Below, in pieces: positions 7,523 to 30,572 of a stretch of 64,000 bases of DNA. The DNA is from Paenibacillus sp. BIHB 4019 (lineage in GTDB: Bacteria; Bacillota; Bacilli; Paenibacillales; Paenibacillaceae). The stretch spans positions 5,008,501 to 5,072,500 of the forward strand of contig NZ_CP016808.1 of NCBI RefSeq assembly GCF_002741035.1, read 5' to 3'. The notes below the pieces were generated by a model that did no database searches, was not told the origin of the DNA, and saw only the letters and a program-made list of their open reading frames with translations. How positions within the stretch are numbered: position 1 is the stretch's first letter; each line of letters begins with the position of its first letter. Both the position numbers and the translations under genes were made by a program.

Positions 7523-8335
7523 TTGCAAAAAATTGATGTATTGTTGGCAGATGACAACAGAGAATTTACTAATTTGTTATCGGAATACATATCCGATCAA
7601 AGTGATATGAATGTGAGCGGTGTAGCGTATAACGGTGAAGAAGTGCTGAGGCACTTGGAAGAATCCCGTAAAATACCGGATGTACTCATTCTTGATATTA
7701 TTATGCCTCATTTGGACGGACTAGGCGTTTTGGAGCGTTTGCGGGAAATGAACATCTCGCCAATGCCTAAAATCATTATGTTGACCGCCTTCGGTCAAGA
7801 AAATATTACACAAAAAGCAGTTCAATTGGGTGCTTCTTATTATATTCTTAAGCCATTTGATATGGATATTTTGGCTAACCGGATTCGCCAGCTGTTCGGG
7901 AATTCTTCGTACTCGGCATCATCTTCTTACAATTCGAGTTCATCAACAGTAAAATCGAATGTTGTTCCGCTTGCCAAGGGCAAAAATCTAGATGCCAATA
8001 TTACAAGCATCATTCATGAAATTGGTGTGCCTGCTCATATTAAAGGCTACCAGTATTTGCGCGAAGCCATCACAATGGTGTATAACAATATCGAAATTTT
8101 GGGTGCGATTACAAAAACGTTATATCCAGCAATCGCCGAAAAATTCAAAACGACACCATCCCGCGTCGAACGGGCAATTCGCCATGCTATTGAAGTCGCC
8201 TGGACGCGTGGCAACATCGACAGCATCAGCCACCTATTTGGCTATACCATCAATATCAGCAAGTCCAAGCCGACCAATAGCGAATTTATCGCGATGGTTG
8301 CAGACAAGCTGCGGATTGAGCATAAGGTTAGCTGA
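7523..8335 (+). CDS. spo0A: Spo0A, sporulation master response regulator, rebuilt by an inserted element
   Basis: Phosphorelay response regulator that starts sporulation. The 270-aa product has a receiver domain (residues ~1-125) with acidic pocket D10/D11 and phospho-acceptor D58 in LILDIIMP, a Ser/Asn-rich linker (~130-145), and the Spo0A DNA-binding domain with the recognition helix [20 protein letters not shown] 7523 is chosen because GGAGGAT precedes it and [12 protein letters not shown] aligns with other Spo0A starts. From codon 195 to codon 229 the DNA is shared exactly with a second copy at 30342; beyond that the sequence must belong to the inserted element. The protein is nevertheless unchanged relative to the displaced copy. 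The gene runs into the integrase gene with no visible terminator. Confidence 0.97.
8105..8208 (+). other. attL: left attachment region of the spo0A element
   Basis: This 104-bp segment is repeated without a mismatch at 30342-30445. Left of it the two copies are unrelated; right of it both continue as spo0A 3' ends with synonymous differences. It encodes residues 195-229 of Spo0A, the helix-turn-helix. The crossover must lie in this stretch, most likely near its left edge where similarity stops abruptly. Confidence 0.88.
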
Positions 8336-8384
8336 ACGTAGGCTGGGAGCGGGGTAGAGCGTGTCAAGAGCTATTGCAATTATG

Positions 8385-8430
8385 GCTATAAATATCCGAA
8401 ATAGGGTATTTTGAGCCGATAAATATCGAA
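8385..8430 (+). repeat. Putative arm-type integrase sites, left end
   Basis: Two related 16-mers, GCTATAAATATCCGAA (8385-8400) and GCCGATAAATATCGAA (8415-8430), are spaced 30 bp apart between spo0A and the integrase gene. The CGATAAATAT core recurs at the right end of the element (30205-30218 inverted, 30288-30300 direct), as expected for arm binding sites of a tyrosine recombinase. Confidence 0.5.
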
Positions 8431-8442
8431 AGTAAGCTAACT

Positions 8443-8492
8443 AATACCACTTGTTTATTGGGTTTCCAACAACCCTATAAAGGAGTGGTATT
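8443..8492 (+). promoter_or_regulatory. Hairpin overlapping the integrase ribosome binding site
   Basis: AATACCACT (8443-8451) is the exact reverse complement of AGTGGTATT (8484-8492), with a nested GGGTT/AACCC stem (8460-8464 and 8471-8475). The ribosome site AGGAG (8481-8485) is half inside the stem, and the ATG begins 4 nt after it. In a read-through transcript from spo0A this structure should limit integrase translation. It could instead be a protein-binding operator. Confidence 0.55.
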
Positions 8493-8496
8493 TCTT

Positions 8497-9471
8497 ATGA
8501 CAAACATGGAATTTCACATCGACAATTTTATGCTTTATTGCAGTTCGAAGAATCTTTCCCGTAAAACGTTGGCATCTTATGAACAAACCCTTAAGCTGTT
8601 TACGTTGTTCTTGAAGCAGAGCTTTGATATTGAAGATGTGAAGAAAGTTCAATCAGGACATATTCGCCAATACATCAAGTATTTGCGGGAGCGGGGAAAA
8701 TACACAGTTGTCAATAAAGAAGAAAGCAAGAACATCAACCATCCTGACAACAGGAGCGATTATAAGAAAGACATATCGACGACAACCATTGCTAACTACG
8801 TCCGAAACATAAAAGTGTTCTTCAACTATCTATATCATGCTGAGAGGGAAATTCCCAAAAATCCCGTAGACAGCATTAAAAACCTGAAGCCTGAAAGGAA
8901 GATGAAGAAGATTCTGACTCCTGATGAAATCAAGCGGGTATTGAAACAGTTTGATTCATCAACCTTCCACGGTTACAGGAACTACATTATTACGAAGCTG
9001 TTGCTGGATACGGGAATGCGTATTGGTGAATGCCTTTCACTATTCCCAGAACATTTCGATTTCGCTCATAAGAGCATATTAATCACGAACCCAAAGAATA
9101 AGCAGGAACGGTATGTATATTTCTCATTCAAACTGGCTAATGACATGAAGCAATGGATGAAGTACAAAGATAGATATTCAGAAAGCCCATTCTTGTTTCC
9201 AACGACCAGAGGAACGCAGCTTGAAGTCCGCAATTATGAGAGAGCATTGCGTCAGGCAGGAGAACAGGTAGGGGTGTCCATCCATCCTCACCAACTGAGG
9301 AATAACTTCGCTAAGTACTACATTCTGAATAACGGTGATTGGTTTAGTCTGTGCCGCATTCTCGGACATTCATCAGTTGAGGTAACTCAGAAGGCTTATT
9401 TGGACTTTACAGATGAAGAAATCGGGCGAAAGTATCAGAAACATAGTCCACTTGCATTCTTGGAGGTCTAA
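8497..9471 (+). CDS. Tyrosine site-specific recombinase (element integrase)
   Basis: A 324-aa phage/ICE-type integrase with an N-terminal SAM-like core-binding domain (residues ~5-130) and a catalytic domain carrying R175 in TGMRIGE, H265-x-x-R268 in HQLR, H291 in LGHSS and the nucleophile Y301 in KAYL. All five visible key residues are intact, so it may be active. ATG 8497 follows AGGAG; an upstream TTG at 8458 would start inside the hairpin. It lies 161 bp after spo0A on the same strand, beside attL, so it is the obvious enzyme for insertion into and excision from spo0A. No separate promoter is obvious, so spo0A read-through may drive it. Confidence 0.93.
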   Translation: MTNMEFHIDNFMLYCSSKNLSRKTLASYEQTLKLFTLFLKQSFDIEDVKKVQSGHIRQYIKYLRERGKYTVVNKEESKNINHPDNRSDYKKDISTTTIANYVRNIKVFFNYLYHAEREIPKNPVDSIKNLKPERKMKKILTPDEIKRVLKQFDSSTFHGYRNYIITKLLLDTGMRIGECLSLFPEHFDFAHKSILITNPKNKQERYVYFSFKLANDMKQWMKYKDRYSESPFLFPTTRGTQLEVRNYERALRQAGEQVGVSIHPHQLRNNFAKYYILNNGDWFSLCRILGHSSVEVTQKAYLDFTDEEIGRKYQKHSPLAFLEV

Positions 9472-9474
9472 GCC

Positions 9475-9942
9475 ATGACAACAAAGAAGAGTGTTTGGAC
9501 GGCTATTGAAGATGATGTTACTGCTCAAAGGCTCGTAGAACTCGCTAGGGCGCACTTTAGGCTTGCTTTGGAACACATAGGAAAAGCTTGTCCAGAACGT
9601 AGGCAAGCTATACAAGCCGAAATTGAGTGTCTGAGAGCAGAAAGAGAATTGTTGTTGACCTCCTTTGAGCAGGGAGGGCGTAAAATGAGCGAAGACTTCG
9701 AGAAATACGAACAACTCGTATGCCGCGAGGATGAATTGTGTTTTGAACTAAAGACATATCAAGAAATAATTTCAGAATTGTTGATGCTAGTTCATAAACG
9801 AGGTACTAGCGTTCTGAATTTGGAGACTGTTGAGGAAGTTATGACAACGCTATATATGGCAGAAATTGATTGTCGCACCGAACTGTTAGATACACAGCTT
9901 GAGAAAAGCATTTTATCTTACAATCTAGGTCGGGAATCATAG
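9475..9942 (+). CDS. Coiled-coil protein downstream of the integrase, unknown function
   Basis: A 155-aa charged, helical protein starting 3 bp after the integrase stop, with its ribosome site GGAGG inside the end of the integrase gene. The two are surely cotranscribed. Heptad-like Glu/Leu/Arg spacing covers most of the sequence (about residues 20-110). I recognise no family. Position suggests a helper of recombination such as a directionality factor, but excisionases are usually smaller and basic, so this is only a guess. A terminator about 130 bp further closes the unit. Confidence 0.7.
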   Translation: MTTKKSVWTAIEDDVTAQRLVELARAHFRLALEHIGKACPERRQAIQAEIECLRAERELLLTSFEQGGRKMSEDFEKYEQLVCREDELCFELKTYQEIISELLMLVHKRGTSVLNLETVEEVMTTLYMAEIDCRTELLDTQLEKSILSYNLGRES

Positions 9943-10069
9943 GGTGATCGATCGATTTTGAACGTCTCCAGTAGCTCGTCCATCTTGTGATTTTGAACTT
10001 GCTGCCGTAGTCTGTTTGTTAAATGCCCATAGGCTTTATGGATTATCGTTCAGTACATGGACTAACATC

Positions 10070-10110
10070 AAAAGAGCCTTATCAGTTGTTTCACCTGATA
10101 GGCTCTTTTA
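10070..10110 (+). terminator. Intrinsic terminator, possibly bidirectional
   Basis: AAAGAGCC (10071-10078) plus TATCAG pairs with CTGATAGGCTCTTTT (10095-10109). It ends the integrase operon. The rest of 9943-10440 shows no gene I can support. Confidence 0.75.
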
Positions 10111-10440
10111 TACGATTTATAGCACCATATATTGTAATAATCTTCTTTTGAACTCTGCTACTGTAGCTTGGTTAATGTTAGTGGTACATCTTCTATAATA
10201 AACGGCATTAAAACTTCTTTGTTGCCCATATGAGCTACAGGTGCTAGCTCTATGCCTAATGAGAATGAAGATGGATTGTTTGCTCAAGTCCTTTTGAACT
10301 GGAGGATTCATTTATAATATGAAGTAATACTAGCGATGTCAGGTTTTCGGTATATTTTTCGAAAAAAATTTTCTATAAAAAACTCAATTTTAAGCGTATA
10401 TCATTAACAAACCCAATAAAAATAAGGGAAAATCAAATAT

Positions 10441-10469
10441 TTTACAATATAAAATAAGTATGCTATACT
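10441..10469 (+). promoter_or_regulatory. Strong sigma-A-like promoter inside the element
   Basis: TTTACA (10441-10446), a 17-bp spacer and TATACT (10464-10469). It reads toward the XRE regulator and tail-protein genes, through a leader with a terminator-like hairpin. Confidence 0.65.
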
Positions 10470-10523
10470 AATTTTAGTGAAGAAGATGTTCCGTCGAATA
10501 ATTTATTTGAATAGGAAGTTAAA

Positions 10524-10553
10524 GCGGGGAGGAAACTCCTCGCTCCTTTTTTT
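10524..10553 (+). terminator. Terminator-like hairpin in the leader of the XRE/tail operon
   Basis: GCGGGGAG (10524-10531), loop GAAA, CTCCTCGC (10536-10543), then TCCTTTTTTT. It lies between the promoter at 10441 and the gene at 10589, so either transcription is attenuated here or the leader makes a short RNA of about 75 nt. Confidence 0.6.
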
Positions 10554-10588
10554 GCATTTTTATGAAAATAATATTGGAGGTTTACAGA

Positions 10589-10786
10589 ATGGAAAGAGAG
10601 TCAAGAGAGGATTACAGAATTAAACGCATTATGAAGTACATCAGATTAAGGGAATTATCAGACCTTTTAGATTGCCATCTTGCTACGGTTAGCCACTATG
10701 AGAATGGCAGATATAATTTGTCTAAAGAGAACGAAGAGAAATACAAAAATTATATTGATTCACATCAGGGGAGAAAACAGTCATGA
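10589..10786 (+). CDS. Small XRE-family helix-turn-helix regulator
   Basis: A 65-aa protein that is essentially one HTH domain: RELSDLLDCHLATVSHYENG (residues ~17-36) matches the XRE/Cro helix 2-turn-helix 3 pattern, followed by an acidic lysine-rich tail. ATG 10589 is preceded by TTGGAGG; the longer frame from 10562 has no ribosome site. The stop overlaps the start of the next gene (ATGA at 10783-10786), so translation is coupled. It may control the promoter at 10441, but no operator was identified. Confidence 0.75.
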   Translation: MERESREDYRIKRIMKYIRLRELSDLLDCHLATVSHYENGRYNLSKENEEKYKNYIDSHQGRKQS

Positions 10787-11607
10787 GTGCATGCTTAGTT
10801 ATACAAACAGGACGAACCATTATTATGGGTTCTGATTCAGCTATTTCAACAACAATTAATGGGCAGATTTATCGCATAGATGAATCAGGTGCGAAACTTT
10901 GGGAAGTGGATGATATGATCATCTTTTGTTCAGGTAACATGAAATATGCTTATCAAATCATGGACATTTTCCTTAGCCAAAAAGATAAAAGCGTATCAAA
11001 TTTAAGTCTAATTGTAAAAGAAGTTTGCTTAGACGATACAGCTATTTCACTAGAAGTATTGGTAGGCGTGGTTCAAGAGGGTTGTTCTCATTTGTATAGC
11101 ATTTCTTCATCAGATAACTTCAGAATTGAAGATCGTAAGATGGAACATACGAATGGTACTGCTATTTGGGCAGCAGGAATCAAAACGGAGGAGAGCGCTG
11201 ACAAAGCTGAACAATATCTTTTACAAGGACAAAGTATCGAAGAGGTATATCAAAATGTATATAATGATATTTCCTTTGAAGGGGTTGGTGGTAAACTGGT
11301 TATTTATCAGTTAACCAAAAGCGAATGCAAGAAATTATTACAGTCAACGATATTGGAAAAACAGGATATAAAGATTTTGACAGCGCAACTCTATCTTGAT
11401 CTTTGTACTAAAAATATGATCATCGGTGAAAGAGTATTCGGAAAACTTCTTGCTGGTACGAACCTTGAAATCGATGCATCAGACGTAAATGGTCAGAGAA
11501 CATTTACGGTGGATGGCAATGGTGTAACCATCCAAGGTGATAAGCTAACCGTCACAGGAGGGATTCCAGCGAATCAGCTTGATCCTGCTTATAAAAAAGT
11601 GAGCTAG
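10783..11607 (+). CDS. Phage tail-associated protein, N-terminal half, Ntn-hydrolase-like
   Basis: 274 aa. Residues ~1-165 faintly resemble the proteasome/HslV (Ntn-hydrolase) fold: a beta strand, then GSDSAIS and a GNMKYA segment. The C-terminal ~70 residues (FTVDGNGVTIQGDKLTVTGG) are the beta-rich repeats of siphophage minor tail proteins. The frame stops at TAG after an A6 run at 11593-11598. The next frame, shifted by -1, continues directly with tail-protein sequence, so the two were probably one protein. Catalytic activity of the N-terminal domain is unproven. No other virion genes are present. Confidence 0.65.
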   Translation: MSACLVIQTGRTIIMGSDSAISTTINGQIYRIDESGAKLWEVDDMIIFCSGNMKYAYQIMDIFLSQKDKSVSNLSLIVKEVCLDDTAISLEVLVGVVQEGCSHLYSISSSDNFRIEDRKMEHTNGTAIWAAGIKTEESADKAEQYLLQGQSIEEVYQNVYNDISFEGVGGKLVIYQLTKSECKKLLQSTILEKQDIKILTAQLYLDLCTKNMIIGERVFGKLLAGTNLEIDASDVNGQRTFTVDGNGVTIQGDKLTVTGGIPANQLDPAYKKVS

Positions 11608-12377
11608 TGCAGCTAATGAAGCCTTACAACGGCGTTACAATCGACTCAGAGAATGGTCTGTATGTTATGAAGTCGGATTCCACAATCAGAACAATGTTGA
11701 ATGCTACAGAGGGTTTCAAGTTCCAAAAGAATGCTGGAACATTATCAGCGCCAACATGGACTGACATGCTGTTTTACGATGTAAATACAGGGAACCTATT
11801 TATTGATGGTGTTGTTAACGCTAGAGATTTAAAGGTCAATGGAGCAAGCGTACTTACAGGGGATGGAAAGTTTAAATCTTCATCGCTGGAAACACTGTAT
11901 GTTGGCAAAAACGTATTTATGGCTCCTGAAGCAAGGATTTCGTGGACTCAGGTAACAGAACAGCCTAATGCAGCTCAGTTGGGTGGAGTGATGACTAATT
12001 CGCCTAAGATGACGTATATTGATGCGAATGGTGTTTATACAGGCACTGTGTCAGCTAATCAGATTAATGCAGGTAAAATTAGATCGCAATATATTGATGT
12101 AGAGGATCTGAAGGTAAATCGAATTTATAGAGAATATAATGACAGTTCAGGATATTTGCAACTATCGGAAGTTGGGGCTGCTGGGCAATCTTTTGGAGAT
12201 TTGGAACTATGGTTTAGTAATGAACGATGGTTTAGAGTCTATAACGGTGGAGGTGGAAAGGTGTACTTAGACGTACATGACACATCATTTTTAGAATCGG
12301 ATGGAACAACTACGACAGCACTAGGAAATTGGGAGTTTAAAGGAAAGGTTACAGGAGTAACAGCTACATTCGCGTAA
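11607..12377 (+). CDS. Phage minor tail/tip protein, C-terminal half
   Basis: Up to 256 aa of typical siphophage tail-tip sequence: the segment NGVTIDSENGLYV, then a stretch around RISWTQVTEQPNA and the TYIDANGVYTGTVSANQI motif found in minor structural proteins. The frame opens with GTG 11607 overlapping the TAG of the upstream gene; ATG 11616 is an alternative and neither has a good ribosome site. That fits a broken or frameshift-expressed downstream half. A hairpin at 12636 follows after about 260 bp of non-coding DNA. Confidence 0.65.
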   Translation: MQLMKPYNGVTIDSENGLYVMKSDSTIRTMLNATEGFKFQKNAGTLSAPTWTDMLFYDVNTGNLFIDGVVNARDLKVNGASVLTGDGKFKSSSLETLYVGKNVFMAPEARISWTQVTEQPNAAQLGGVMTNSPKMTYIDANGVYTGTVSANQINAGKIRSQYIDVEDLKVNRIYREYNDSSGYLQLSEVGAAGQSFGDLELWFSNERWFRVYNGGGGKVYLDVHDTSFLESDGTTTTALGNWEFKGKVTGVTATFA

Positions 12378-12635
12378 AAATTGCTGTTACTACTTAGTTG
12401 CCACTTTCAATTTAATCTTCAAAGGGTAAGATATTTTTTAGGTATTAATTGTACTCAGTGACAGGTATAGGCCAAAGATTATAGAATGGGACTTCTGCAT
12501 AAACAGTGTGAGGAGAAAAGATGCCTGGCTAAAACAGATCCAAGCGAAGGCACAATCCCATTCTGGAAAATGTCACTTATGACGTTCTAAAGGACAGTAG
12601 CATTCAAAAGTCTAAATCACCTGTTTTTGAAAAGT

Positions 12636-12672
12636 GAAATAGGTTACCAATAAATTATAGGTAGCCTATTTC
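12636..12672 (+). terminator. Hairpin, probable terminator
   Basis: GAAATAGGTTACC (12636-12648) pairs with GGTAGCCTATTTC (12660-12672), with one mismatch. The T-run is weak, so terminator strength is uncertain. It lies in the 12378-12750 gap, which otherwise shows nothing. Confidence 0.5.
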
Positions 12673-12750
12673 GTTTGTAGATTATTGAAAGAATTGATAA
12701 TCATCAAGGTTTAAGGATTCAGTGTTAAATTAATAGGAGAAGTGGAAGTT

Positions 12751-13833
12751 ATGTATAAAGAGCCAGAGAAAAAGCAGGAAAAATATGTTGGGTTCCCAAT
12801 GAAAATGAATGCATACGGGCACAAAGAGTTATTTATTGTGCAAAAAGATGAAAATGCTTTCATTTTATATTTTATTTTAGGTAAAATGACGCAAAATTAT
12901 TGGACGTGGGGAAGTTTTGAGACGACTGTTGTCACTCTTAGTAAGCAATTCTCTATCAAGAAGAAGGAAAGTGATAACAGAAAAGAAATCAAGCGTCTAT
13001 TATTAGTATTGCATGAAAAAGGATGGTTCAAGATTATGTTTGATGAACAATCATTTGAGTATGATACGTTGCTTAATATTTCAATGGTAGACTTGGATAG
13101 TCCGCAAGTAATGTCTGTTGTAGAAAGCGAAAATTTTAAGCACACAGGTTATCTCAAAGTTACACAAGAGATGTTTGACTCATGTAAATGGAATGCTAGA
13201 CATTTTAGAGGGTTAATTTACGCCGAATGGCGCATGATGCGTGGTCAAGAGAATGAGGGCAAATACCGTATTTCAGGTAGTGAGTGGCAAAAGGCAATGG
13301 GGATATCTAAACTGACTCAGATTAATCTAGTCAAGGAACTTGATGAATTGAATTTAGTTGATAAACAACGCGGTGAAATGTACATAGACGCTTGTGGCAA
13401 ACCAAAACGTGAAACAAATCTATATTCTGTGGTGTGTGACGAAGAACGCCAAGAACGTAAGCAAGAAGAGAAGCAAAATGAATATTCCTTGATAAAGCAG
13501 CACAATTTTGACGTTCATGCGGAGGTTGCTCAATTGGATGCTATAGATCCAAGATGTGAAAACACAAATGTATATAAAACAGGTAAGAAAGATTACCTTG
13601 GCAATAAAGAATATTGGATTTGGAATACGACGAAATACAAAAGCACAAAAATGCACTTGGATGCACGTTTCAATAGCTTTAAGAATGCAAGACCTGATTT
13701 ATACGCTACTGTCGTAATGGAAGGCGAGAAGTACATGAAGAAAATAAATGCTAATAAAGATTGGCAAGAAAAACAACATCAAATGAGCAGCCATCGTAAT
13801 AAAGGCTATGATCCAAGGTTTTATCTGAGTTAA
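12751..13833 (+). CDS. Winged-helix DNA-binding protein, possible replication initiator
   Basis: A 360-aa AT-rich gene. The sequence pattern (two helical/winged-helix-like blocks, about residues 50-110 and 130-215, the second including ISKLTQINLVKELDELNLVD, then a lysine-rich linker and a basic C-terminal domain) resembles RepA-type or phage-type initiator and HTH replication proteins, but I cannot name a family. ATG 12751 follows AGGAG 11 bp upstream; GTG 12742 is too close to it. Its stop overlaps the next small ORF (TAATG), and nearly 1 kb of hairpin-rich non-coding DNA follows, which would suit an origin. Confidence 0.6.
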   Translation: MYKEPEKKQEKYVGFPMKMNAYGHKELFIVQKDENAFILYFILGKMTQNYWTWGSFETTVVTLSKQFSIKKKESDNRKEIKRLLLVLHEKGWFKIMFDEQSFEYDTLLNISMVDLDSPQVMSVVESENFKHTGYLKVTQEMFDSCKWNARHFRGLIYAEWRMMRGQENEGKYRISGSEWQKAMGISKLTQINLVKELDELNLVDKQRGEMYIDACGKPKRETNLYSVVCDEERQERKQEEKQNEYSLIKQHNFDVHAEVAQLDAIDPRCENTNVYKTGKKDYLGNKEYWIWNTTKYKSTKMHLDARFNSFKNARPDLYATVVMEGEKYMKKINANKDWQEKQHQMSSHRNKGYDPRFYLS

Positions 13834-13970
13834 TGAAATTAAAAAGTTCACAAATGGAAAAAGATGAGATAGCAGGGAGACAAGCAAAAAGAGAACAGGC
13901 AGATGACTTTGCTGATATATTAGATGAAGTAATAGAATACAAAAGAGCTAAGCTAGAAGATGATCATTAG
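13833..13970 (+). CDS. Small acidic/basic helical protein coupled to the winged-helix gene
   Basis: A 45-codon frame whose ATG overlaps the stop of the preceding gene (TAATG at 13831-13835), a classic translational coupling. The product is highly charged and helical (Lys/Glu/Asp), ending in LEDDH. No family is recognised. The overlap and even charge pattern argue that it is real. Confidence 0.45.
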   Translation: MKLKSSQMEKDEIAGRQAKREQADDFADILDEVIEYKRAKLEDDH

Positions 13971-14395
13971 CCGTTCTAGTTGTTAAATAATAGTTGAAGG
14001 TAGCTTAATGCTAGCTTTCCAATTACTGATTCGAAGGACTGATGTTATGAATTTACTCTAAAATTCACAATAGAAAGATACTGTTTATTTCAGGGGCAAG
14101 CTTAAGAGTGTACGTTGCGACAAATCTAATCAGGAGAAAAAATGTTGGTAAATGAACGACTATATAACCAGTGAAGCGATTATCTTCATCTTGCGAAGAC
14201 AGCTAATTCGGTAGGTAGTAGATCAAATATATAAGTATAGATTCAGAGCAAATCTGACGAAATTTTATTTTGTAAAGTATAATTCCTAGTCATATTTGAC
14301 GTTGTTTTATAACTGTTGAAGTTTAATATTTGATCAAAATTGATGCTATTCTATACAGTATAAACCAAAGAACTTAAGAAAGAAGAAAACTTACC

Positions 14396-14497
14396 TATAA
14401 ACCCAGCGGGGCTAGTGGGTAGGTTTTTCGCTTACGCTCCCCTCTAAGACCCTGTCGCTTCGCTCCTATCGTGCCACAAGTGGCACTCTTGTTTTGA
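14396..14497 (+). other. Hairpin cluster in a 1-kb gene-free stretch, candidate origin or oriT
   Basis: Inside the gene-free interval 13971-14954 lies a GC-rich island in AT-rich DNA: an imperfect CCTA..ACCCA/TGGGTAGG hairpin ending in TTTTT, two related motifs CGCTTACGCTCC (14429-14440) and CGCTTCGCTCC (14456-14466), and a 7-bp stem GTGCCAC/GTGGCAC (14471-14486) followed by TCTTGTTTT. A terminator pair would explain part of it; the paired motifs suggest an origin of replication or transfer. Another hairpin (GGTAGC/GCTAGC) lies near 13994-14015. The rest of the interval shows nothing clear. Confidence 0.35.
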
Positions 14498-14954
14498 CAC
14501 TAATTTTCTATTATCGTTTGTAGTATGGTGATTTCGCTTGATATATTGTGTTGCTGTGTTTCAGTAATTATTCTATATTAGATTATCTACAAGGGAGAAC
14601 ATCTCCTTTGACTTTGAATACAAAACTTACTTCAGATGAATTTAGATCACTTCTCACAAAATAACAAAAATCTGAAACGTTCCATTTTAATCGAATTTTT
14701 TCTTGTTGTAAGTAATGCTGTCCCATAAAAGGACTAACTAACACCCAAATACAAATAATTTTAGTTGTTACTGCTTCTCATAAGCGTTTCGAATTGCATT
14801 AAATGAATATGAAATCAAGTTTGTTGAAAGTTTGCCAGATGAGCTATTTTTTCAAGACAAAGAATAAGATGACTCTAGTAACCTTCATTGACATTTATAT
14901 TAATTAATGATATATTTATAGGCTAACATAAATCATATTTCGGAGGTTTTGCCA

Positions 14955-15280
14955 ATGAAAACGATTAATGAAATTTTAGAGCAGTTTTTGACACAATGGA
15001 TTTAAGGTCTATGGCGTTTGTAGTAAGAATGAAACATCATAATGCGGAAGATTTTGACTTAATACATTACGCAGGAAATAGCAAAGATACTCTAACGTGT
15101 TCAGAGAGTTACAACACTGGCGAAAATGACGAAGACACTGCTGAAAGAATGGGCAAAATCGATGCCATGAGCGAATCAGAGTGTCAGCTGCTGGAACAAT
15201 ACCTTCTCAATAATCTTAGTGACTATTTGCATGAAAGCGACGAATATTACGATAACGATTATGATGAAGATACCTTATAG
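14955..15280 (+). pseudogene. Small acidic protein gene with a frameshift near its start
   Basis: GGAGG precedes ATG 14955, which reads MKTINEILEQF and then stops after 16 codons. In the -1 frame the sequence continues as FDTMDLRSMAFVV and on to an acidic C-terminus (DNDYDEDTL) at 15280. Adding one T to the T5 run at 14985-14989 would join both parts into a protein of about 108 aa. Either the gene is broken or translation restarts at ATG 14996 (94 aa). The family is not recognised. Confidence 0.55.
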
Positions 15281-15335: not shown

Positions 15336-15339
15336 CTGT

Positions 15340-22818: not shown

Positions 22819-22948
22819 CGCGACAATTTTAGTTATCCGTAAGAATCAAGGGGATATCGACACAATAAACCCGCGAAACGGATAGTGTTTTTTATTGCAT
22901 AATGATGCACTACTAATTTGTGGAATATAGCAAAATTTATTGTCGCAA
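22819..22948. repeat. Short inverted-repeat region, origin unknown
   Basis: GCGACAAT (22818-22825) recurs inverted as ATTGTCGC about 120 bp to the right, and inside it TATCCGT/ACGGATA form a second nested pair around 22834-22883. The 22731-23352 interval has no gene I can support. The nested pairs recall a MITE-like remnant or a recombination site. Confidence 0.3.
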
Positions 22949-23219
22949 AATTCGGGTTTTCCGACATAGGCTGCTTAGAGCGAGTATTTAATCAATTTGT
23001 CCTGTATAATTAATCCTTTGAGTGGATTTATATGCATGTTGAATTGAAGAGTAAATTGAATTTCAAAAGCATGCACAACAGATGAATTATAAACCTTTAC
23101 AAGTGTTCAGTATGTACAGGAGCTGCGCTGGGGTTTGTAGGTCATATTTGCCAAGCAACAAGAGAGCGTATCATGATAACGCATCTAAGATTGTAAAGAA
23201 ATACAATACACGTCAAAAG

Positions 23220-23243
23220 CCCTCCAGAGAGAGGGTTTTTGTT
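23220..23243 (+). terminator. Intrinsic terminator
   Basis: CCCTC (23220-23224), 6-nt loop, GAGGG (23231-23235), then TTTTTGTTT. No clear gene precedes it, so it may end a small RNA or a decayed gene lying in 23040-23219. Confidence 0.6.
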
Positions 23244-23352
23244 TGGGAATATAGACATAGATAGTAGGGGGTGGTTTTCGGCAATAGAATCTAATTGGAA
23301 CTCTGTGTAGGGGGAAGCACAACAGCAGCACGAATCAACGTGAAATTATTTT

Positions 23353-24147
23353 TCAATCTAATTTTTGGCGCTCATCAAGGAGTGATTTTAGTTCTTCAGG
23401 CAATGGAGTACCATCTACTAAGCTGCTAATAAGCTTTTGAGCTTCCCATTTAGCTAATTGATTTATATCTACCCTTAAATGAATTGTGGATTTTTTTAGT
23501 AAATAGGATAGATATGACATTTGATAAAGAGTTATTTTTTCGGGAAAGACTCTACTTTCTGATGTTTTTAGTTTATTTTTATTTATGTTAATGAAGCTAT
23601 TGATAACCTCTTCGTATGTATGTGTATAGTCGTTTATCGTGACTTTATCTGTTGTTTCCAATAAAGCCATGCGGAAATCTTTGCGAGTCAATAATTTATT
23701 GAAATAAAAATGAATGGTTTTGTTGGCTTGTTCATCAGTAAGTGAAAATTTTAATTTTACCTTCGTAATAAGATGCAGAAGAAATTTTGGAACACTTTCT
23801 GGAAAACTTCTGCCTAGAAAAGCTAAGGAAGAATCGTTTTTAATAAAAGAATTATACTCTGTTTTGTTATACCGTTCTGAGAGGTGTTGTGGTACATCGA
23901 GTAAAATATCCTTCAAGTTTTTATCCATACTTTCCTTAAGCTTTATTAATAATAGTTTGCCGTCTATATCAAAAACTTCAGGTTCTTCAAGACACTCACA
24001 TACAAAAGCAGAATCGACTTTATATATTTCTGCAAGTTGCTTTAAATCTTCGAACCTTGTAGCATCAATTTTAAACATCTCAACATACTGTCTTCTAGGT
24101 GATTTCACTGGAAATCGCTTTAGAATTTCAAAATAGTCTATACTCAC
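23353..24147 (-). CDS. Hypothetical 264-aa protein of a two-gene cassette
   Basis: Minus-strand gene overlapping its upstream partner by 4 bp (ATGA), so the two are translationally coupled. The product is soluble, helical and basic at its N-terminus (EILKRFPVKSPRRQYVEMFK). A middle part, LTDEQANKTIHFYFNKLL, vaguely recalls DnaB/DnaD-type replication proteins, but this is weak. No catalytic motif is visible. It is isolated from other genes by gaps on both sides. It could be a replication-loading accessory or one half of an unknown pair. Confidence 0.55.
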   Translation of the reverse strand: MSIDYFEILKRFPVKSPRRQYVEMFKIDATRFEDLKQLAEIYKVDSAFVCECLEEPEVFDIDGKLLLIKLKESMDKNLKDILLDVPQHLSERYNKTEYNSFIKNDSSLAFLGRSFPESVPKFLLHLITKVKLKFSLTDEQANKTIHFYFNKLLTRKDFRMALLETTDKVTINDYTHTYEEVINSFININKNKLKTSESRVFPEKITLYQMSYLSYLLKKSTIHLRVDINQLAKWEAQKLISSLVDGTPLPEELKSLLDERQKLD

Positions 24148-24338
24148 GATTCATTAGCCCCTTTTTTTAGCTTTTTGTACATCTCGTCCCACTCATGCTC
24201 TCCAGCCCACTCATCGTCTTGCTTGAAAGTTTTAGATTGTGAATCAGCGTGTTCTCTGATTGCATCTTTGTGTTCCTCTATAAAATTTTCGAAGTTAGCA
24301 TTTCTTGTATCTTTGCTTTGCTGCGAATCAGTCATCAT
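24144..24338 (-). CDS. Small acidic protein, partner of the 264-aa protein
   Basis: 64 aa (start MMTDSQQSKDTRN), rich in Glu, Asp and Lys with no hydrophobic core, ending KKLKKGANES. GAGGTGAT lies just before the start; ATG 24335 is an equally good start. Its stop overlaps the start of the larger gene. A small acidic protein encoded first in a coupled pair recalls antitoxin/toxin or inhibitor/effector layouts, but neither protein matches a known toxin family. It also resembles phage replication accessory peptides in size. Confidence 0.5.
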   Translation of the reverse strand: MMTDSQQSKDTRNANFENFIEEHKDAIREHADSQSKTFKQDDEWAGEHEWDEMYKKLKKGANES

Positions 24339-24696
24339 ATCACCTCAATATTCCCAAGGGAATTAATTTCGACTTGTTGCAAATCAATAATAATATTTTT
24401 ATTCACAAAAACCAATAGCTATTTTCAATTATTTTTTCTAAGTAATCCATAATTATATTTATTTTATTTAATGTCTGTTAAATATAGCATGTTTTATAGT
24501 CAGTTATTATTTCTATTTAGAAGAAATGAAGTCATACACTAGTTAGACTATCAACTGAAGCATCATAGTAGACTATTTAAGTTCATCTGAAATAACTTAG
24601 TTATTTATCGAAGTTTTCTAACTCAATTTCTATCAATTTAATCAAATCAGAAGCTTTAATATAAGAAAAATATTTAAGAAACTTTTTTGATCTCAT

Positions 24697-24762
24697 CACG
24701 GCGAATTCATGAACCAATATTTGTTTGTATCTACTTAAATGCTTCTTCATGAATTTGCCGTG
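24697..24762. repeat. Long inverted repeat in a gene-free gap
   Basis: CACGGCGAATTCATGAA (24697-24713) pairs with TTCATGAATTTGCCGTG (24746-24762) with one mismatch, separated by 32 nt. It sits in the gene-free stretch 24339-24799, which is otherwise AT-rich and featureless. No T-run follows, so it is not a typical terminator. Confidence 0.45.
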
Positions 24763-24799
24763 GTGGATTTAGTGAATTTGTTGAATCAAATAACACATA

Positions 24800-24837
24800 A
24801 AAAAATCGCTTTGGATGCTACTCCAAAGCGATTTTTT
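24800..24837 (-). terminator. Terminator of the XRE regulator gene
   Basis: A perfect 16-bp inverted repeat AAAAAATCGCTTTGGA (24800-24815) / TCCAAAGCGATTTTTT (24822-24837). The right arm overlaps the stop codon of the minus-strand gene ending at 24836. Confidence 0.85.
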
Positions 24838-25171
24838 AAGGCTTAAATATTGTGTTAAGTATAATAATAGACTTTTTTAGCTGTTTATCATCAAGTGTTA
24901 ATAGTAATTCTATGATATCTTTTAAATTTTCTCTATTATTAACCAATTTTTTTGTATCCCTATGGTCTAAAAAAAATTCATATAATTCGACGTCCAGTGC
25001 ATCAGCAATTTTTTCTAAGCTCTTTATAGAGATATTATTCTCAGCACGTTCAATGCCACCAATATATGAAAATGCAAAACCACATTTTTCGCCAAGGGAC
25101 GTTTGGGAATATCCTTTTGCTTTACGTATTTCCCTGACTCTTTTTCCTATCTTAATTAAAGAATCCTCCAT
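24836..25171 (-). CDS. XRE-family transcriptional regulator
   Basis: 111 aa from the ATG at 25171 (MEDSLIKIGKRVREIRKAKG); GTG 25180 is an alternative. An N-terminal HTH (RKAKGYSQTSLGEKCGFAFS, then YIGGIERAENNISIKSLEKIADAL) is typical of SinR/immunity-type XRE repressors. The C-terminal ~40 residues are helical and probably dimerise. AGAGGTG precedes the start. It is divergent from the DUF4236 gene at 25328 across a ~155-bp intergenic region, where it likely binds. It may be the element's main repressor. Confidence 0.85.
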   Translation of the reverse strand: MEDSLIKIGKRVREIRKAKGYSQTSLGEKCGFAFSYIGGIERAENNISIKSLEKIADALDVELYEFFLDHRDTKKLVNNRENLKDIIELLLTLDDKQLKKSIIILNTIFKP

Positions 25172-25327
25172 TAGCCACACCTCTTAAGTAAAGTGTAGAC
25201 AAAAATTTGATAGGAGGACATAAGTCTAAAATGGTTAAAATTGATTTTAAATGATATTTATATTAGTCATTATGTTGTATAATTATTGACATGTTAATCA
25301 TCTATTACATATTAGGGGGAATTTAAA

Positions 25328-25951
25328 ATGGGATTTTTTCGTTTCAGGAAAAGCATAAACCTTGGTGGAGGAGTTAAATTAAATGCTGGTAAAAAAGGGC
25401 TAGGGATTAGTGCTGGAGTCAAAGGATTGCGTGTTAGTCATGGAGCTGACGGCAAAACAAGAGTCACTGCAAGCATGCCAGGAACAGGTATCAGCTATCA
25501 GGAAACTTTGAATAAGAAAAAGACAACTTCTAACGAACTATCCCAGAGTAATGTGAGTAATGAATACAAATTTGAACAACAGTCATACTCAGATAAAGGA
25601 AATCTTCTTTATAAGGTGTATGGAGAATATTTAGGGCTATATGACGATAGGGAATTTGATCCTCCTAATCGTGACTTAAAGTATAAGACTTGTGAGATTT
25701 TATTTTATGAAGGTGAAGTATCAGTTAATTTAAATAATGTAGCCTATGTTAGAGAATACTGCTCAATTGCAGAAATCGACTTTTCTGTGAAAGTTGAAAA
25801 GAAAGGGATTTTCTCAAGTAAGATGAAATATATTCTGCATATTATTATAAATAGAGAACCATTTGGAGATACCGTTTTGCAAGTTAGGATTCCAAATATG
25901 ATGTTTGCAGAAGATATCAAAAGAGCTATTCAAAGAAAAGTTTTCAGGTAG
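25328..25951 (+). CDS. DUF4236 domain protein
   Basis: 207 aa. The first ~55 residues (GFFRFRKSINLGGGVKLNAG, KKGLGISAGVKGLRVSHGADGK, then PGTGISYQETL) are the DUF4236 domain, a glycine-rich, beta-hairpin-like module found at the N-terminus of many uncharacterised proteins, often in mobile DNA. A Ser/Asn-rich linker follows, then a ~120-residue C-terminal domain of unknown type. AGGGGG lies upstream of ATG 25328. It is divergent from the XRE regulator. Function unknown. Confidence 0.8.
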   Translation: MGFFRFRKSINLGGGVKLNAGKKGLGISAGVKGLRVSHGADGKTRVTASMPGTGISYQETLNKKKTTSNELSQSNVSNEYKFEQQSYSDKGNLLYKVYGEYLGLYDDREFDPPNRDLKYKTCEILFYEGEVSVNLNNVAYVREYCSIAEIDFSVKVEKKGIFSSKMKYILHIIINREPFGDTVLQVRIPNMMFAEDIKRAIQRKVFR

Positions 25952-26132
25952 TAATTGAAGAATGCTATATATTGTGTTACAAGCCCTACGAACTCGTAAA
26001 CAACACATAGTTATGGTATGGCGTTGCAAGATTGAAATCAATATAAAGTAGCTCAGATGTCGATTTCTCTCAAAATGTTCTATATAGGTACCTAAGTAGT
26101 AACAAACATTTTCTATTACTTGGAGGTTGGAA

Positions 26133-26819
26133 ATGAAGCATTGTGTTAGTTGTGATAAGCGATATGAACAGGAAGTGATTTATTGCGGTTTATGTGGAAA
26201 AGAGTTAGAAGAGGTAGTAGACAACAAACAAGACTTGGCTGTAAATCCATTAAAGACATCTAATGCAATTCAAAGAAACAAGTCATCAAAAACTCTAAAA
26301 TCAATAATTGCTGTTGCTACAGTCTTGTTTTTTATAGCGATTGTATATTTCATCTTCAACAATTTCATTTCCATTGATGGACAGGCTAAAGTTGCTGTAA
26401 ACAAATATCTTTCCGCAATTAAAAATGGGGATTCTACATCAGATTTTAAAGAATATGACGTTGATGATTTTATAAATGTACTTGATTACAAATTCTTACG
26501 TGTGATTTACACGTCGAAAGCACCTGAACAATTAATTATCAATGAGGGTACTTATGATAAGTTCCACAAAGATGATTATCAGTCATTTGATGAGTGGAAA
26601 GAGAGTATGAAGAAAGATTTTAAAAGTTTTGAAGTAATATCAGAGGATGATCAAGAGATGATAATGCAATCCCTGACTGAAACCTACGATAAAGTTACGT
26701 TACTTTATGATGTGACTGTAACAAACGGTTTAGGGGAATCTGTTTATAAAAAAGCTAATTTTATTGTTAAAAATGATGAATATGACGGTAAGTTTAGAGT
26801 CAATATGATTGATTACTAA
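26133..26819 (+). CDS. Zinc-ribbon membrane protein with extracytoplasmic domain
   Basis: 228 aa from ATG 26133 (GGAGG 6 nt upstream). The N-terminus has a zinc ribbon CVSCDKRY...YCGLCGKEL. A basic linker and one transmembrane helix follow (residues ~57-78, SIIAVATVLFFIAIVYFIF), then an acidic ~145-residue outside domain. This layout (zinc ribbon, helix, NTF2-like or TcaA-like outer domain) is common in Firmicutes membrane-stress proteins. The outer domain's family is not certain. It lies between DUF4236 and a glycine-rich membrane protein. Confidence 0.65.
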   Translation: MKHCVSCDKRYEQEVIYCGLCGKELEEVVDNKQDLAVNPLKTSNAIQRNKSSKTLKSIIAVATVLFFIAIVYFIFNNFISIDGQAKVAVNKYLSAIKNGDSTSDFKEYDVDDFINVLDYKFLRVIYTSKAPEQLIINEGTYDKFHKDDYQSFDEWKESMKKDFKSFEVISEDDQEMIMQSLTETYDKVTLLYDVTVTNGLGESVYKKANFIVKNDEYDGKFRVNMIDY

Positions 26820-26889
26820 ACTGTATGTTTGCAAGAAAGATTGTGAAAGCTATTTGATGTTATTCTAAATAACGATGGAGATCAGAGAC

Positions 26890-27621
26890 ATGGAAAACAA
26901 GAAAAGTCTACTTAGTGTAGATGAAAATGCAATTCTATCAGAAGAGTTTTCGAAAGCTCCTTTAGTTCAAAAATTATCATTATTCACATGTTGGATACCA
27001 CTACTCTTAACGATTTATCTGTGGTACAAGCTTCAATTTTGGTGGGGAGTTTTAGCGCTATTAGTTTTCATTATTATGGCAGGGTCAGGATTAGTAATAG
27101 ATACAAAAGCTAAAGATAGAGTCAAGAAACAAAAAGATAAAGCTCTAGATGAAATAATAACTGCTAACGGAATAACCAACATGCAGAAATATGTAGCTGA
27201 ATACGATGATTTTGCTGTTGTAGTGGATGAATTGAAAGAACGTCTCTATTTTATAGATTATGAAATCAGAGAGTTTTCGCTTTCAGATGTCCTAGAGGTG
27301 GAAATGATTGAAGATGAAGTGCAAATCACTAAGACCTCTAGAGGTAGTCAATTAGGTGGTGCAGTAATCGGAGGGCTGATAGCTGGTGGTGTTGGTGCAG
27401 TAATTGGTGGGGTTTCAGGAACGAAGACAACTTCCAGCGACAGCGTAAAGAGAATATATATGAAATTAATAGTTGATGATACCAAAAGACCATATGTTAC
27501 TGTTAATTTTCTAAATGAAAAGAAAGAAATATCTAAAAAAGATAAAAAAGCTGAGAAGGCAATAGAGGATGCTAATCACTGGTATGGATTAATCAGCGTT
27601 TTGATTAATAGGGCTGTATAG
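26890..27621 (+). CDS. Membrane protein with glycine-rich C-terminal segment
   Basis: 243 aa from ATG 26890, with ATGGAG as ribosome site 9 nt upstream; ATG 26875 is in frame but has none. Two close helices lie near residues 28-65 (LSLFTCWIPLLLTIYL and WGVLALLVFIIMAGSG). A soluble region with IDYEIREFSLSDVLEVEMIED follows, then GGAVIGGLIAGGVGAVIGG, a glycine-zipper-like hydrophobic segment. Glycine zippers occur in membrane-inserting proteins. The family is known to me only as uncharacterised mobile-element proteins. Third gene of the 25328-27621 cluster. Confidence 0.6.
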   Translation: MENKKSLLSVDENAILSEEFSKAPLVQKLSLFTCWIPLLLTIYLWYKLQFWWGVLALLVFIIMAGSGLVIDTKAKDRVKKQKDKALDEIITANGITNMQKYVAEYDDFAVVVDELKERLYFIDYEIREFSLSDVLEVEMIEDEVQITKTSRGSQLGGAVIGGLIAGGVGAVIGGVSGTKTTSSDSVKRIYMKLIVDDTKRPYVTVNFLNEKKEISKKDKKAEKAIEDANHWYGLISVLINRAV

Positions 27622-27711
27622 GTATTTATCCAAATTGAGATTTTTATTTTAACAGACTATTGCTGACATGAAAGCTTGGATGGTACTGTCTAGGAAATAA
27701 TATTTTTACGC

Positions 27712-27773
27712 GAAAGCATCGCTAATTCTTGGGCAAGAACTGTCCTTGATTTAGTGGTGCTTTTTGTTTTTCG
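27712..27773 (+). terminator. Probable terminator after the membrane protein cluster
   Basis: AAAGCATCGCTAA (27713-27725) pairs with TTAGTGGTGCTTTTT further on, allowing G-U pairs, and is followed by T-rich sequence. Between it and 28000 an open stretch of about 45 codons without a start codon ends at 27926 and may be a gene fragment. Confidence 0.5.
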
Positions 27774-27999
27774 GAGAGGGTCAAGGATTATGAAGGGAAA
27801 TTAATTGTTACTGATGCTGATTTCCAGAACAGTGTTTACTTTCAACAGAAGGTAGAAGTATGGGGTAATGAAGAGTTGGATGATGCTTGTATGATTATAG
27901 ATTTCAATGACTCTATTTTAGAATAAATGATGGATTTCACTATATCAAGTAAAATTGCGTATTCTGTGTTATTAAGTAAATGGGGTATATAGAATCTGA

Positions 28000-28395
28000 T
28001 TGTATTATAATGATAGAATTAATATGGAAACATCAGGGGCTAGAGATTTTGGAGCAGATATTGTTGTTACTGATCGTGAGGGAATAAGGAATGTGGTACA
28101 GGCGATACGATATATTGATCCAGTGGGTATCAGCGCGATTCAAGAGGTTTTCTCTTGCATGAGGTACTACAGAGCCAAAAAAGCGATAGTCATAGCATTT
28201 GCCAAGTTTACTGAGCCATGTGAAACGTTAGCTGGAATTAAACATGTGAAGTTGTTAGACAGAAGTGACTTGGTAGCCAAGATTGACGATTTCAAACGAG
28301 ATGATATTCAGGGAGTAAGGGACAGAACTGAAACAGAGTCGCGCATTATTTTTGAATCATGGAATGAGACAAATAGTGAAATGATTATTCAATGA
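28000..28395 (+). pseudogene. Mrr-like restriction endonuclease fragment lacking the catalytic lysine
   Basis: 131 aa at most. GARDFGADIVVTDREGIRNVVQAIRY, VGISAIQEVFSCMRYYRAKKAIVIAFAKF and LLDRSDLV follow the Mrr-type PD-(D/E)XK fold closely: the metal-binding Asp (DFGAD) is present, but the QAKR motif reads QAIR, so the essential Lys is Ile. The N-terminal part of such enzymes is absent, there is no good ribosome site, and the start (TTG 28000 or ATG 28024) is unclear. It looks like a dead remnant. A second Mrr remnant lies at 17936-18304. Confidence 0.65.
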
Positions 28396-28580
28396 GTATT
28401 TTATACGAAACGTGCATACAGAAAGTTATATGAGAAATTCAACAAGGCTTAAGCTAAAGCAGACTACTATAAAACAGGTATTAATCTCTACAAAAATGAG
28501 GTGATTCAAAGCTAATTTGATTTAGAGTTAATGTTCTGTTTTTCTGAGAACAACGTAATTTAAAATAATTAGAGAATGGT

Positions 28581-30101
28581 GTGATTACATTGGAAGTTGA
28601 CTTTAGTATGAAACATAAAGCTGATCGATTCCGTGAAATACTTGAATCATTACTCAAAAACTATCAGCCTCATGATTATGCAGTATTCGTATCCAATATT
28701 CTTAATGATGTTTTTAATAAGAGTGAACAATTTGGACGGTATCCACCTCATTTTTTGTTACACTCAATTCAGTCAAACTGTATTTATCATCGTACCAATC
28801 GAAACCAGGAACTTAGCAAAAACAAACTTCAAAAGATACTAAATCATTATCGCCAATATTTTGATCCAGTTGCTATGTACTTCTTGGAAAAGGATGATGG
28901 TGTAACACCATTCTTAATAAATATGTTTAGGCAACAATTTTTTTTGCAGTGGGGTCATGGTTCTAACTCGTTGGGTCGCATGATAACATTGTTTAATTTA
29001 GGTAATTACCCTAAAAGCGAGACTTTTTTTAAAGAGAAATATGGAATGTCTTTCGATGAATGGTTACTTGCAGGAGTTGCGGTGCAGGCTTATATTTCTG
29101 TGCATAAACCACAAATTATTTCTCCACTTTACTATTTTAGCTTGGAGACGAAGATTGTTCCTGATAGTGTTATTGATTATTTTTTTAAAATTAATTCTAT
29201 ATCACCTATAGAAGTTAAAAACTATAATGAACAAGTTGAAAAGAAGGTTGGGCAATCAAACTCAGAGTTATATGATACGTATCTTCAAGGGGTATTTGTT
29301 GAAAAGCCAATGCTTCAACTGAATGATATAGAGTACCTTGTTATACATAAAGAACTATTTATGAGAAAGATTACTGAAGGTATTTTCGACATTTGTAAGA
29401 AGGAACTTCCTAGTGACTTTGGAGTTGAATTTGGAGAAAGTTTTGAGAGATACATTGAAAAATTGTTATTGAATTTTATTCCTAAATCAAAAGTTTTTAG
29501 AGAGAGCCAACTCCGCCAACACACTAGTAAAAAAGTATGTGATTTTATGATTGTATTTGAAGATTATATATATCTTATAGAATCTAAAGGAGTGGAGTTT
29601 AGCGCTTATATTTCATCAGAGAACGCTATGAAGCAAGATAACTCTACAAGGAAAATAAGTACTGGATTTGAGCAGTTGTATTCAGTTGTAGAAATGATTA
29701 ATAACGGTACTTTCACAAGCTTGATAGGGGAGAGTAAGCACAAGAAAATTATTGCATCAGTGATAACCTATAAACAAATCATTTCTGCTAATTCGGATTG
29801 GTACTATGAAAATAATATTTCTCCGAATTTAAAGAAAAATAATTCAAAAGATATTGAATTTTTTCAATATAGACCGCAAATTTTATCAATTATTGAGTTG
29901 GAACTATTACTGAAGTATTGTAAAGATTCAAATAAAAGCTATCTTGATGTTTTTGAGGAAAGGTTGGGAAATGAAAATTATGTTTTGATGGGTGAGTGGT
30001 ATAGTTTTTTGGATTTAGAAAACGATATAATACCCTTTCTAGCGGATACGCATAGAGATTATCTTGATAGATTGCTACCCGACATAAGACTGAAAAATTA
30101 A
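28581..30101 (+). CDS. Large protein with PD-(D/E)XK-like nuclease motif, possible defence gene
   Basis: 506 aa from GTG 28581 (TTG 28590 or ATG 28608 possible). The N-terminal ~230 residues are helical with no known family. In the C-terminal half, GESFERYIEKLL, then CDFMIVFEDYIYLIESKG give the E...D...ExK order of PD-(D/E)XK nucleases, spaced as in restriction-like effectors. A long tail follows. It is the last gene before the right end of the element, a common site for cargo such as anti-phage genes. I cannot assign a named system. Confidence 0.65.
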   Translation: MITLEVDFSMKHKADRFREILESLLKNYQPHDYAVFVSNILNDVFNKSEQFGRYPPHFLLHSIQSNCIYHRTNRNQELSKNKLQKILNHYRQYFDPVAMYFLEKDDGVTPFLINMFRQQFFLQWGHGSNSLGRMITLFNLGNYPKSETFFKEKYGMSFDEWLLAGVAVQAYISVHKPQIISPLYYFSLETKIVPDSVIDYFFKINSISPIEVKNYNEQVEKKVGQSNSELYDTYLQGVFVEKPMLQLNDIEYLVIHKELFMRKITEGIFDICKKELPSDFGVEFGESFERYIEKLLLNFIPKSKVFRESQLRQHTSKKVCDFMIVFEDYIYLIESKGVEFSAYISSENAMKQDNSTRKISTGFEQLYSVVEMINNGTFTSLIGESKHKKIIASVITYKQIISANSDWYYENNISPNLKKNNSKDIEFFQYRPQILSIIELELLLKYCKDSNKSYLDVFEERLGNENYVLMGEWYSFLDLENDIIPFLADTHRDYLDRLLPDIRLKN

Positions 30102-30204
30102 CACACACTTGCTTAACTGAAAACAATGGTTGAGTTGACGGAAGAGAGTTTGGGAAAAGAGCTATAGTAGTTCAGTTCATAATTCAGCTGTAAATAGTAA
30201 GAAC

Positions 30205-30300
30205 AGATATTTATCGGGTTGACACTATCTGAGTCTTGAAGTAAGGTTTGAGTAGGGATAAATGGGCTATAAATTTTCCCTAGAAAACCCGATAAACATT
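30205..30300. repeat. Putative arm-type integrase sites, right end
   Basis: AGATATTTATCGGG (30205-30218) is the inverted form and CCCGATAAACATT (30288-30300) the direct form of the CGATAAATAT motif seen near attL. They sit 30-140 bp inside attR. The remaining non-coding DNA 30102-30341 shows nothing else. Confidence 0.5.
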
Positions 30301-30341
30301 TGGATTTGTACTACTCATTCGAACATTTTGACAGCTCAATA

Positions 30342-30572
30342 GCGATTACAAAAACGTTATATCCAGCAATCGCCGAAAAATTCAAAACGACACCATCCCG
30401 CGTCGAACGGGCAATTCGCCATGCTATTGAAGTCGCCTGGACGCGCGGCAACATCGACAGCATCAGCCACCTATTTGGCTATACCATCAATATCAGCAAG
30501 TCGAAACCAACGAATAGCGAATTTATTGCGATGGTTGCAGACAAGCTGCGGATTGAGCATAAGGTGTCTTAA
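30342..30572 (+). pseudogene. spo0A: Displaced 3' end of spo0A, with attR
   Basis: The reading frame for Spo0A residues 195-270 with stop TAA. Bases 30342-30445 equal 8105-8208 exactly. Then 11 base differences follow, all synonymous (8 codons plus TGA versus TAA), so the encoded 76 residues equal the rebuilt gene. It lacks the receiver domain, the first part of the DNA-binding domain, and a ribosome site. An in-frame TTG at 30300 would add 14 unrelated residues, but nothing supports translation. It is best read as the chromosomal 3' end separated by insertion. Confidence 0.9.

Follow-up and report, generated by a model that had tools for sequence, protein, structure and literature searches.

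How can some 22 kb of AT-rich DNA lie against spo0A, the gene that in Bacilli settles the choice between growth and sporulation, and leave that gene whole? This arrangement is found in a 64,000-nucleotide stretch of the Paenibacillus sp. BIHB 4019 genome (the window; contig NZ_CP016808.1, positions 5,008,501 to 5,072,500), for which the original prediction described an integrative element that rebuilds the DNA-binding end of Spo0A with a synonymous copy. Direct comparison of the two copies in the window agreed with that description to the base: positions 8105-8208 equal 30342-30445 without a mismatch, at a spacing of 22,237, and the 22.2-kb interior has a G+C content of 34.9%, between flanks of 46.5% (left) and 49.6% (right). 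Beyond this 104-bp block the copies differ at 8209, 8266, 8269, 8272, 8275, 8290, 8329-8332 and 8334, and position by position these 11 bases fall, as predicted, in eight codons and the stop codon (TGA vs TAA) and change no amino acid. The likeness begins at 8105 and stops right after 8334; in a repeat search of 7000-31500 the pair forms one 224-nt repeat of 97% identity, the runner-up direct repeat being 45 nt at 71%. The spo0A open reading frame (ORF) was correctly described as uninterrupted, and the tyrosine integrase noticed beside the left copy is indeed an intact gene (Table 1). Because the Spo0A C-terminus is nearly invariant anyway (at most of its last 77 codons, 110 or more of 114 sequences encode the same residue), the all-synonymous pattern reflects selection on Spo0A and is nothing special to this island.

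An integrase gene at one island end beside its target, a whole target at one junction with a displaced fragment at the other, and an uninterrupted site in relatives (G372, G371 and G172) are all found here, as in gene-restoring islands, of which e14 in icd is an example; the window element is a site-specific integrative island. In G372, the nearest relative seen, spo0A is 95% identical upstream and no integrase matches; the gene runs into DNA matching the window from 30617 onward (76% over 956 nt) and then from 31660 onward. In G371 spo0A is followed after ~0.7 kb by the DNA that in the window starts at ~31662 and includes the Imm33-type gene at 31734 (87-89% identity). From these flank matches, ~22 kb was therefore inserted in the lineage of the window. 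G172, which is close to G229, likewise has an unoccupied site.

The original prediction knew of no family targeting spo0A and proposed a search for the integrase in other genomes, which uncovered a large one. Searching 394 genomes of the window's family (E up to 1e-60) gave 26 matches in 23 genomes. A sample of 250 genomes from the class (E up to 1e-50) added 4 genomes belonging to four other families, and 200 genomes from the family of G606 added 14 matches in another 13 genomes. The tally is 40 genomes including the window's own, with 44 matches representing 43 genes, since a frameshifted gene in G265 gives two; the relatives are 46-96% identical and lie in 39 other genomes of five families. 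Every one of the 43 genes follows directly on the codons for the Spo0A C-terminus, on the same strand. The spacing could be computed for 43 matches and is 148-219 nt in 42 of them, the exception being G580 (19 by extrapolation from a match beginning at residue 56); G294, where the integrase start is missing, gives no value. Nine named loci above 75% identity (Paenibacillus, Gorillibacterium) likewise have the integrase at spo0A, as does G398, of a further family, at 80%; at a tenth named locus, a 29% match in Glaciecola, no spo0A was seen. Among the matches examined, the spo0A end is the only target of the window-type integrase. Judged from these loci, islands that preserve the gene form a genuine family at the spo0A 3' end across Bacilli, and since the Spo0A of hosts in the G606 family is only ~52-57% identical to that of the window, the association is probably old. 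Some integrase genes of the family are broken. A protein search returned 1243 integrase-like proteins (E up to 1e-20), the 120 matches listed including many named Bacillales genera, often annotated 'integrase/recombinase XerD', by similarity only. INPHARED and PLSDB gave no integrase match above 60% identity (rows listed, 23-31%), and IMG/VR gave one contig with the integrase at 77%.

A second integrase lineage (L208:4112-5143, L212-L221), which shares ~29% identity with the first, approaches this site from the opposite side: all 10 matches in 295 genomes begin close beside a displaced spo0A end, on the opposite strand, reading away. In an IMG/VR contig classed as viral (L192:9620-10000) the integrase follows a partial spo0A end, and an upstream reverse-oriented ORF resembles, by eye, the second integrase type.

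A second spo0A end lies within 40 kb in 16 of 20 arrays starting at spo0A, and more than one Spo0A-end match (E up to 1e-6) was found in 42 of 394 family genomes, a count made by hand that did not inspect every genome and misses very short pieces. One contig of P. macquariensis (G191), an array with several such ends, holds four spo0A ends and three window-type integrases, and G808 has two of these integrases. In the window, a decayed third copy matching -61 to -4 (Table 1) probably marks an older insertion at the same place. A lipoprotein-like ORF (30867-31529) lies between the displaced and the decayed ends.

Where the strands exchange was approached by comparing islands, with positions counted from the last base of the spo0A stop codon. 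Five islands have displaced copies that start at -230 to -219, one at -142, five at ~-125, four at ~-93 and one at -62; beside the second integrase type the start is near -58 in several arrays. For G141 the boundary (~-123) was taken from the displaced copy (residue 240 on), the left copy running into Ns. Because sister copies start this far downstream, the 104-bp block is not the attachment core, and a crossover at that block or at -230 was rejected. The smallest block common to left and right copies gives the outer bounds of the core (Table 1). Compared with five island-free relatives, the left copy of G059 fits better at -90..-60 (0.87-1.00 vs 0.80-0.87) and the right copy at +1..+19 (0.68-1.00 vs 0.21-0.26) and at nearly all differing sites from -18, so that the fit switches from left to right between -60 and -18; in G265 it switches between -50 and -1. 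The related islands of G201 and G210, in different species, are 90.6% identical at -240..-60, 100% at -48..0 and 98.7% over 150 nt after the stop, and G201 and G228, 98% identical upstream with different islands, diverge by 13-17% at -90..-30. An island-supplied end is favoured by G059 and G201/G210, and the picture is blurred by G372, G201/G205 and G265.

We consider it probable that the element belongs to a class of site-specific islands whose tyrosine integrase targets the 3' end of spo0A and exchanges strands inside the last ~60 bp, the island supplying the end. The crossover most likely falls within those ~60 bp, our best guess being -50 to -8. On integration the island would provide the last codons, the stop and the terminator to which the 5' part of the host gene is joined, and the end native to the host would come to lie at the far side. 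The original prediction was right to place an integrative element at the end of spo0A; the helix-turn-helix, on this reading, would not be supplied by the island. Since the island carries a synonymous end, Spo0A would be kept while variable cargo, predicted defence genes included, rides along. As candidate cores we considered AATTTAT (-52..-46, an imperfect inverted repeat seen by eye) and, on weak evidence, a stretch with some unusually fixed synonymous codons (Table 1), in which codon -29 is AAG in 110 of 114 sequences and -17 is GAG in 106 of 114, vs a gene-wide preference for GAA and, upstream, AAA; codons -23 and -20 in the same stretch vary.

Several observations weigh against this interpretation. 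The island-free G372 agrees with the left copy of the window at 8 of the 11 sites and keeps matching it for 12 nt after the stop. A left-version end followed by the DNA from 8336 onward had been named in advance as the pattern that would speak against the prediction; G372 shows the first part of it and then continues into right-flank DNA. We read this tail as a scar or an older replacement, and 'left foreign, right native' is therefore too simple. Comparison of spo0A with and without the island, as originally suggested, found unoccupied sites, but neither the window against G372 and G371 nor G201 against G205 (right copy native-like at -77..-51, left at -42..-12) fits any single crossover. The crossover is not fixed, the G265 switch lying anywhere in its interval, and a narrowing to -36..+6 in G202 rests on G240, itself a carrier. 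Four of the 20 arrays lack a second spo0A end within 40 kb, and the integrase genes of G201 and G210 are 89% alike although the preceding DNA is ~99% alike. Shared blocks start near -60 and divergence between species pairs peaks at -60..-45; a crossover nearer the stop leaves both unexplained, so gene conversion between copies has to be assumed, and the 104 identical upstream bases of the window require recent conversion or within-species transfer. Neither excision nor a circle nor transfer was seen in these sequence data, and a directionality factor was not identified.

Measured over 25 overlapping pairs of close species, divergence is 0.03-0.07 at -600..-90, 0.11-0.17 at -90..-30, 0.013 at -30..-15 and 0.15 at -15..0. 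Between -90 and -30 the pairs diverge two to three times as much as in the upstream gene, and this holds for pairs now island-free as well.

The alternative that survives best, which we regard as unlikely, is a crossover at or after the stop codon, in which spo0A is never cut, nothing is rebuilt and the right spo0A piece is a passive remnant carried by the island. In its favour, the islands of G000, G059 and G265, with near-identical integrases, differ by eye from the stop to ~+20 and agree beyond, the left tail of G372 extends to +12, and left/right identity passes the stop in G229 (+26), G210, G240 and G158. That identity ends, however, at -7 in the window and at +3/+4 in G332/G041, so that a core common to all cannot lie further on, and the right copy of G059 looks native from ~-18. 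A skin-like element, timed to sporulation and switching a sporulation gene by excision in the mother cell, is much less probable still. The position at the sporulation master gene, with a co-oriented integrase directly downstream, recalls such elements, but the target is whole while occupied instead of interrupted as in the skin type, so that excision would restore nothing, and the recombinase is of the tyrosine type, SpoIVCA of skin being a serine recombinase. A segmental duplication that put copies of the spo0A end on both sides of unrelated AT-rich DNA, through ordinary recombination or as a misassembly, would account for the nearly identical copies and is almost certainly wrong: the genome is a single 7.25-Mb contig and other assemblies show the same integrase, hairpin and displaced end, which makes the assembly artefact raised at the outset very unlikely, and repeats occur at both island ends.

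Downstream of the hairpin between spo0A and the integrase come a T-rich run and then the integrase ATG; the hairpin lies in a fold of -25.4 kcal/mol (dinucleotide shuffles, mean -11.1, z -5.2). All 26 leaders that were folded, 23 of them distinct in the stretch used, showed a hairpin over a Shine-Dalgarno-like tract, with mononucleotide-shuffle z from -1.9 to -7.1. They comprise those of 17 arrays, two further G191 copies and seven from outside the family; L190, L191, L193-L197, L203, L204-L206 and the degenerate G141, G265 and G294, among others, lay outside this set. The arms differ yet remain complementary, judged by eye, for example AATACC/GGTATT, AAAATCAC/GTGATTTT and AACACTCC/GGGGTGTT. 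A scan for consensus terminators missed the hairpin, the probable reason being mismatches within it; Rfam gave nothing at the junction, and no tRNA was found in the window. Consensus promoters before the integrase show no excess (2 sites in 17 leaders vs 4.6 expected from shuffles). An island-type hairpin also follows spo0A in 20 of 90 genomes scored as integrase-free, where shuffles predict 0.09, with a pattern written after seeing examples that recovers 18 of 25 integrase-bearing leaders. One of these 20, G294, has an integrase remnant further on, and in G329, G365, G404 and G247 the hairpin is followed by what appear, by eye, to be the first integrase codons. The island hairpin may derive from native spo0A terminators, not the reverse.

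By analogy, the hairpin may act as both terminator and translation lock, ending spo0A transcription and hiding the integrase start, so that the integrase would be nearly silent while integrated. The precedent is T1 of Tn916, a terminator just inside the left end that shields this element from a host promoter and overlaps both the start and the ribosome site of orf24 (PMC11658703). As in T1, the terminator-like hairpin of the spo0A islands is at the left end and overlaps the ribosome site of the first gene; Tn916 has many integration sites, whereas the island hairpin lies behind spo0A and reaches over the integrase start (PMC11658703). More speculatively, island mobility could be wired to sporulation, with integrase made only by read-through from spo0A and excision triggered by the rise of spo0A at sporulation onset, or with an anti-terminator opening the lock in the circular form. 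This tentative idea stems from the lack of promoter excess, the same-strand ~150-220-nt layout and the terminator kept over the ribosome site across families of differing sequence.

The island ends share further motifs. CCGATAAAYAT occurs three times in the window (8416, 30207 in reverse and 30289), always at island ends, where chance gives a mean of 0.13, and GGCTATAAATWT occurs twice, once per end. With a looser motif in 16 islands, left ends have 17 forward copies (13 of 16 islands), right ends 17 copies (14 of 16) and interiors 40 copies in ~217 kb; 13 reverse left-end copies were put aside because TTTATTGG of the hairpin itself matches the looser pattern. We predict that these recurring motifs are arm-type integrase sites.

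Table 1. Positions of features at the spo0A locus in the window.
Feature	Position	Strand	Basis or remark
spo0A, intact	7523..8335	+	TTG start chosen by us; ORF listing begins at 7493
Left copy of spo0A 3' end	8105..8335	+	8105-8208 identical to right copy
Smallest block common to left and right copies across islands (~-59 to -7)	8276..8328	+	outer bounds of attachment core
Stretch with some unusually fixed synonymous codons	8306..8327	+	candidate crossover core, weak evidence
End repeat GGCTATAAATAT, left end	8384..8395	+	repeat search
CCGATAAATAT, predicted integrase arm site, left end	8416..8426	+	motif recurrence
Terminator-like hairpin after spo0A	8443..8492	+	3' arm holds integrase Shine-Dalgarno 8480-8485 (AAGGAG)
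Tyrosine integrase, 324 aa	8497..9471	+	Phage_integrase E 1.9e-31
Small ORF after integrase	9475..9942	+	relatives in 2 of 17 other islands compared
363-aa protein, no informative function	12742..13833	+	relative in G202 island
AbiJ-like protein, Abi_C domain, predicted phage defence	17174..17923	-	domain match
Mrr-type nuclease domain protein	28000..28395	+	domain match
GapS1-like anti-phage protein, weak	28581..30101	+	153 bits, under curated cut-off 320
CCGATAAATAT, predicted arm site, right end	30207..30217	-	motif recurrence
End repeat GGCTATAAATTT, right end	30265..30276	+	repeat search
CCGATAAACAT, predicted arm site, right end	30289..30299	+	motif recurrence
Right junction: displaced spo0A 3' end	30342..30572	+	repeat comparison
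Decayed third spo0A-end copy, 58 nt matching -61 to -4	31537..31594	+	alignment score 48; largest of 200 shuffles 43

Across 18 islands with 339 ORFs, the integrase alone is common to all. Besides the AbiJ-like, Mrr-type and GapS1-like proteins, the window island encodes many proteins of no assigned function, among them the 363-aa protein, for which 22 relatives are listed, itself included, none with an informative function. With 125 proteins of other islands, PADLOC models including HerA, ShosA/ShosT, PtuA, HamB and PD-T4-6 gave matches (E up to 1e-10; 25 of 153 families listed), and capsid, portal and baseplate models each matched one protein among the other islands (25 of 74 Pfam families listed). 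Prophage genes (capsid, portal, terminase) were found neither among the 24 ORFs of the window island scanned with Pfam nor among the 10 scanned with PHROGs, and relaxase or conjugation genes had no Pfam match among those 24.

Full-text searches of the open-licence literature found no paper describing spo0A as an attachment site, and the main text of PMC12884075 does not mention the gene. The gene-restoring principle is already known: islands in tRNA and protein genes carry a replacement end, and a displaced fragment marks the far end (Islander, PMC4383910; Integrase-On-Demand, PMC12884075), and the spo0A islands probably work alike. The new parts, apparently unremarked, are the spo0A target, its breadth, the second integrase lineage and the hairpin between spo0A and integrase. 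In dusA-specific islands, too, a single protein-coding gene is the target of an integrase family, only the integrase is common to all and the cargo varies; these islands occupy the 5' end of dusA, whereas the spo0A islands sit at the 3' end of a developmental regulator and have a terminator/ribosome-site hairpin at the junction (PMC4482086). Like skin, SP-beta and yin, the spo0A islands are mobile DNA lodged at a sporulation gene; unlike these, which interrupt the gene and excise, they leave it intact (PMC10747680). Spo0A_C (PF08769) is reported to be enriched in Firmicutes mobile elements, and the C-terminal domains counted there may partly be displaced gene ends, not sporulation cargo (PMC6907783).

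Since a dedicated integrase lineage and a second one land there, the last codons and 3' region of spo0A look like a patchwork shaped by mobile DNA, in what is a widely used landing site in many spore-forming bacteria. The spo0A end is also a predictable place to seek phage-defence cargo and a natural integration site for engineering. Elsewhere in the window, an FMN riboswitch lies at 61680-61890 (96.8 bits).

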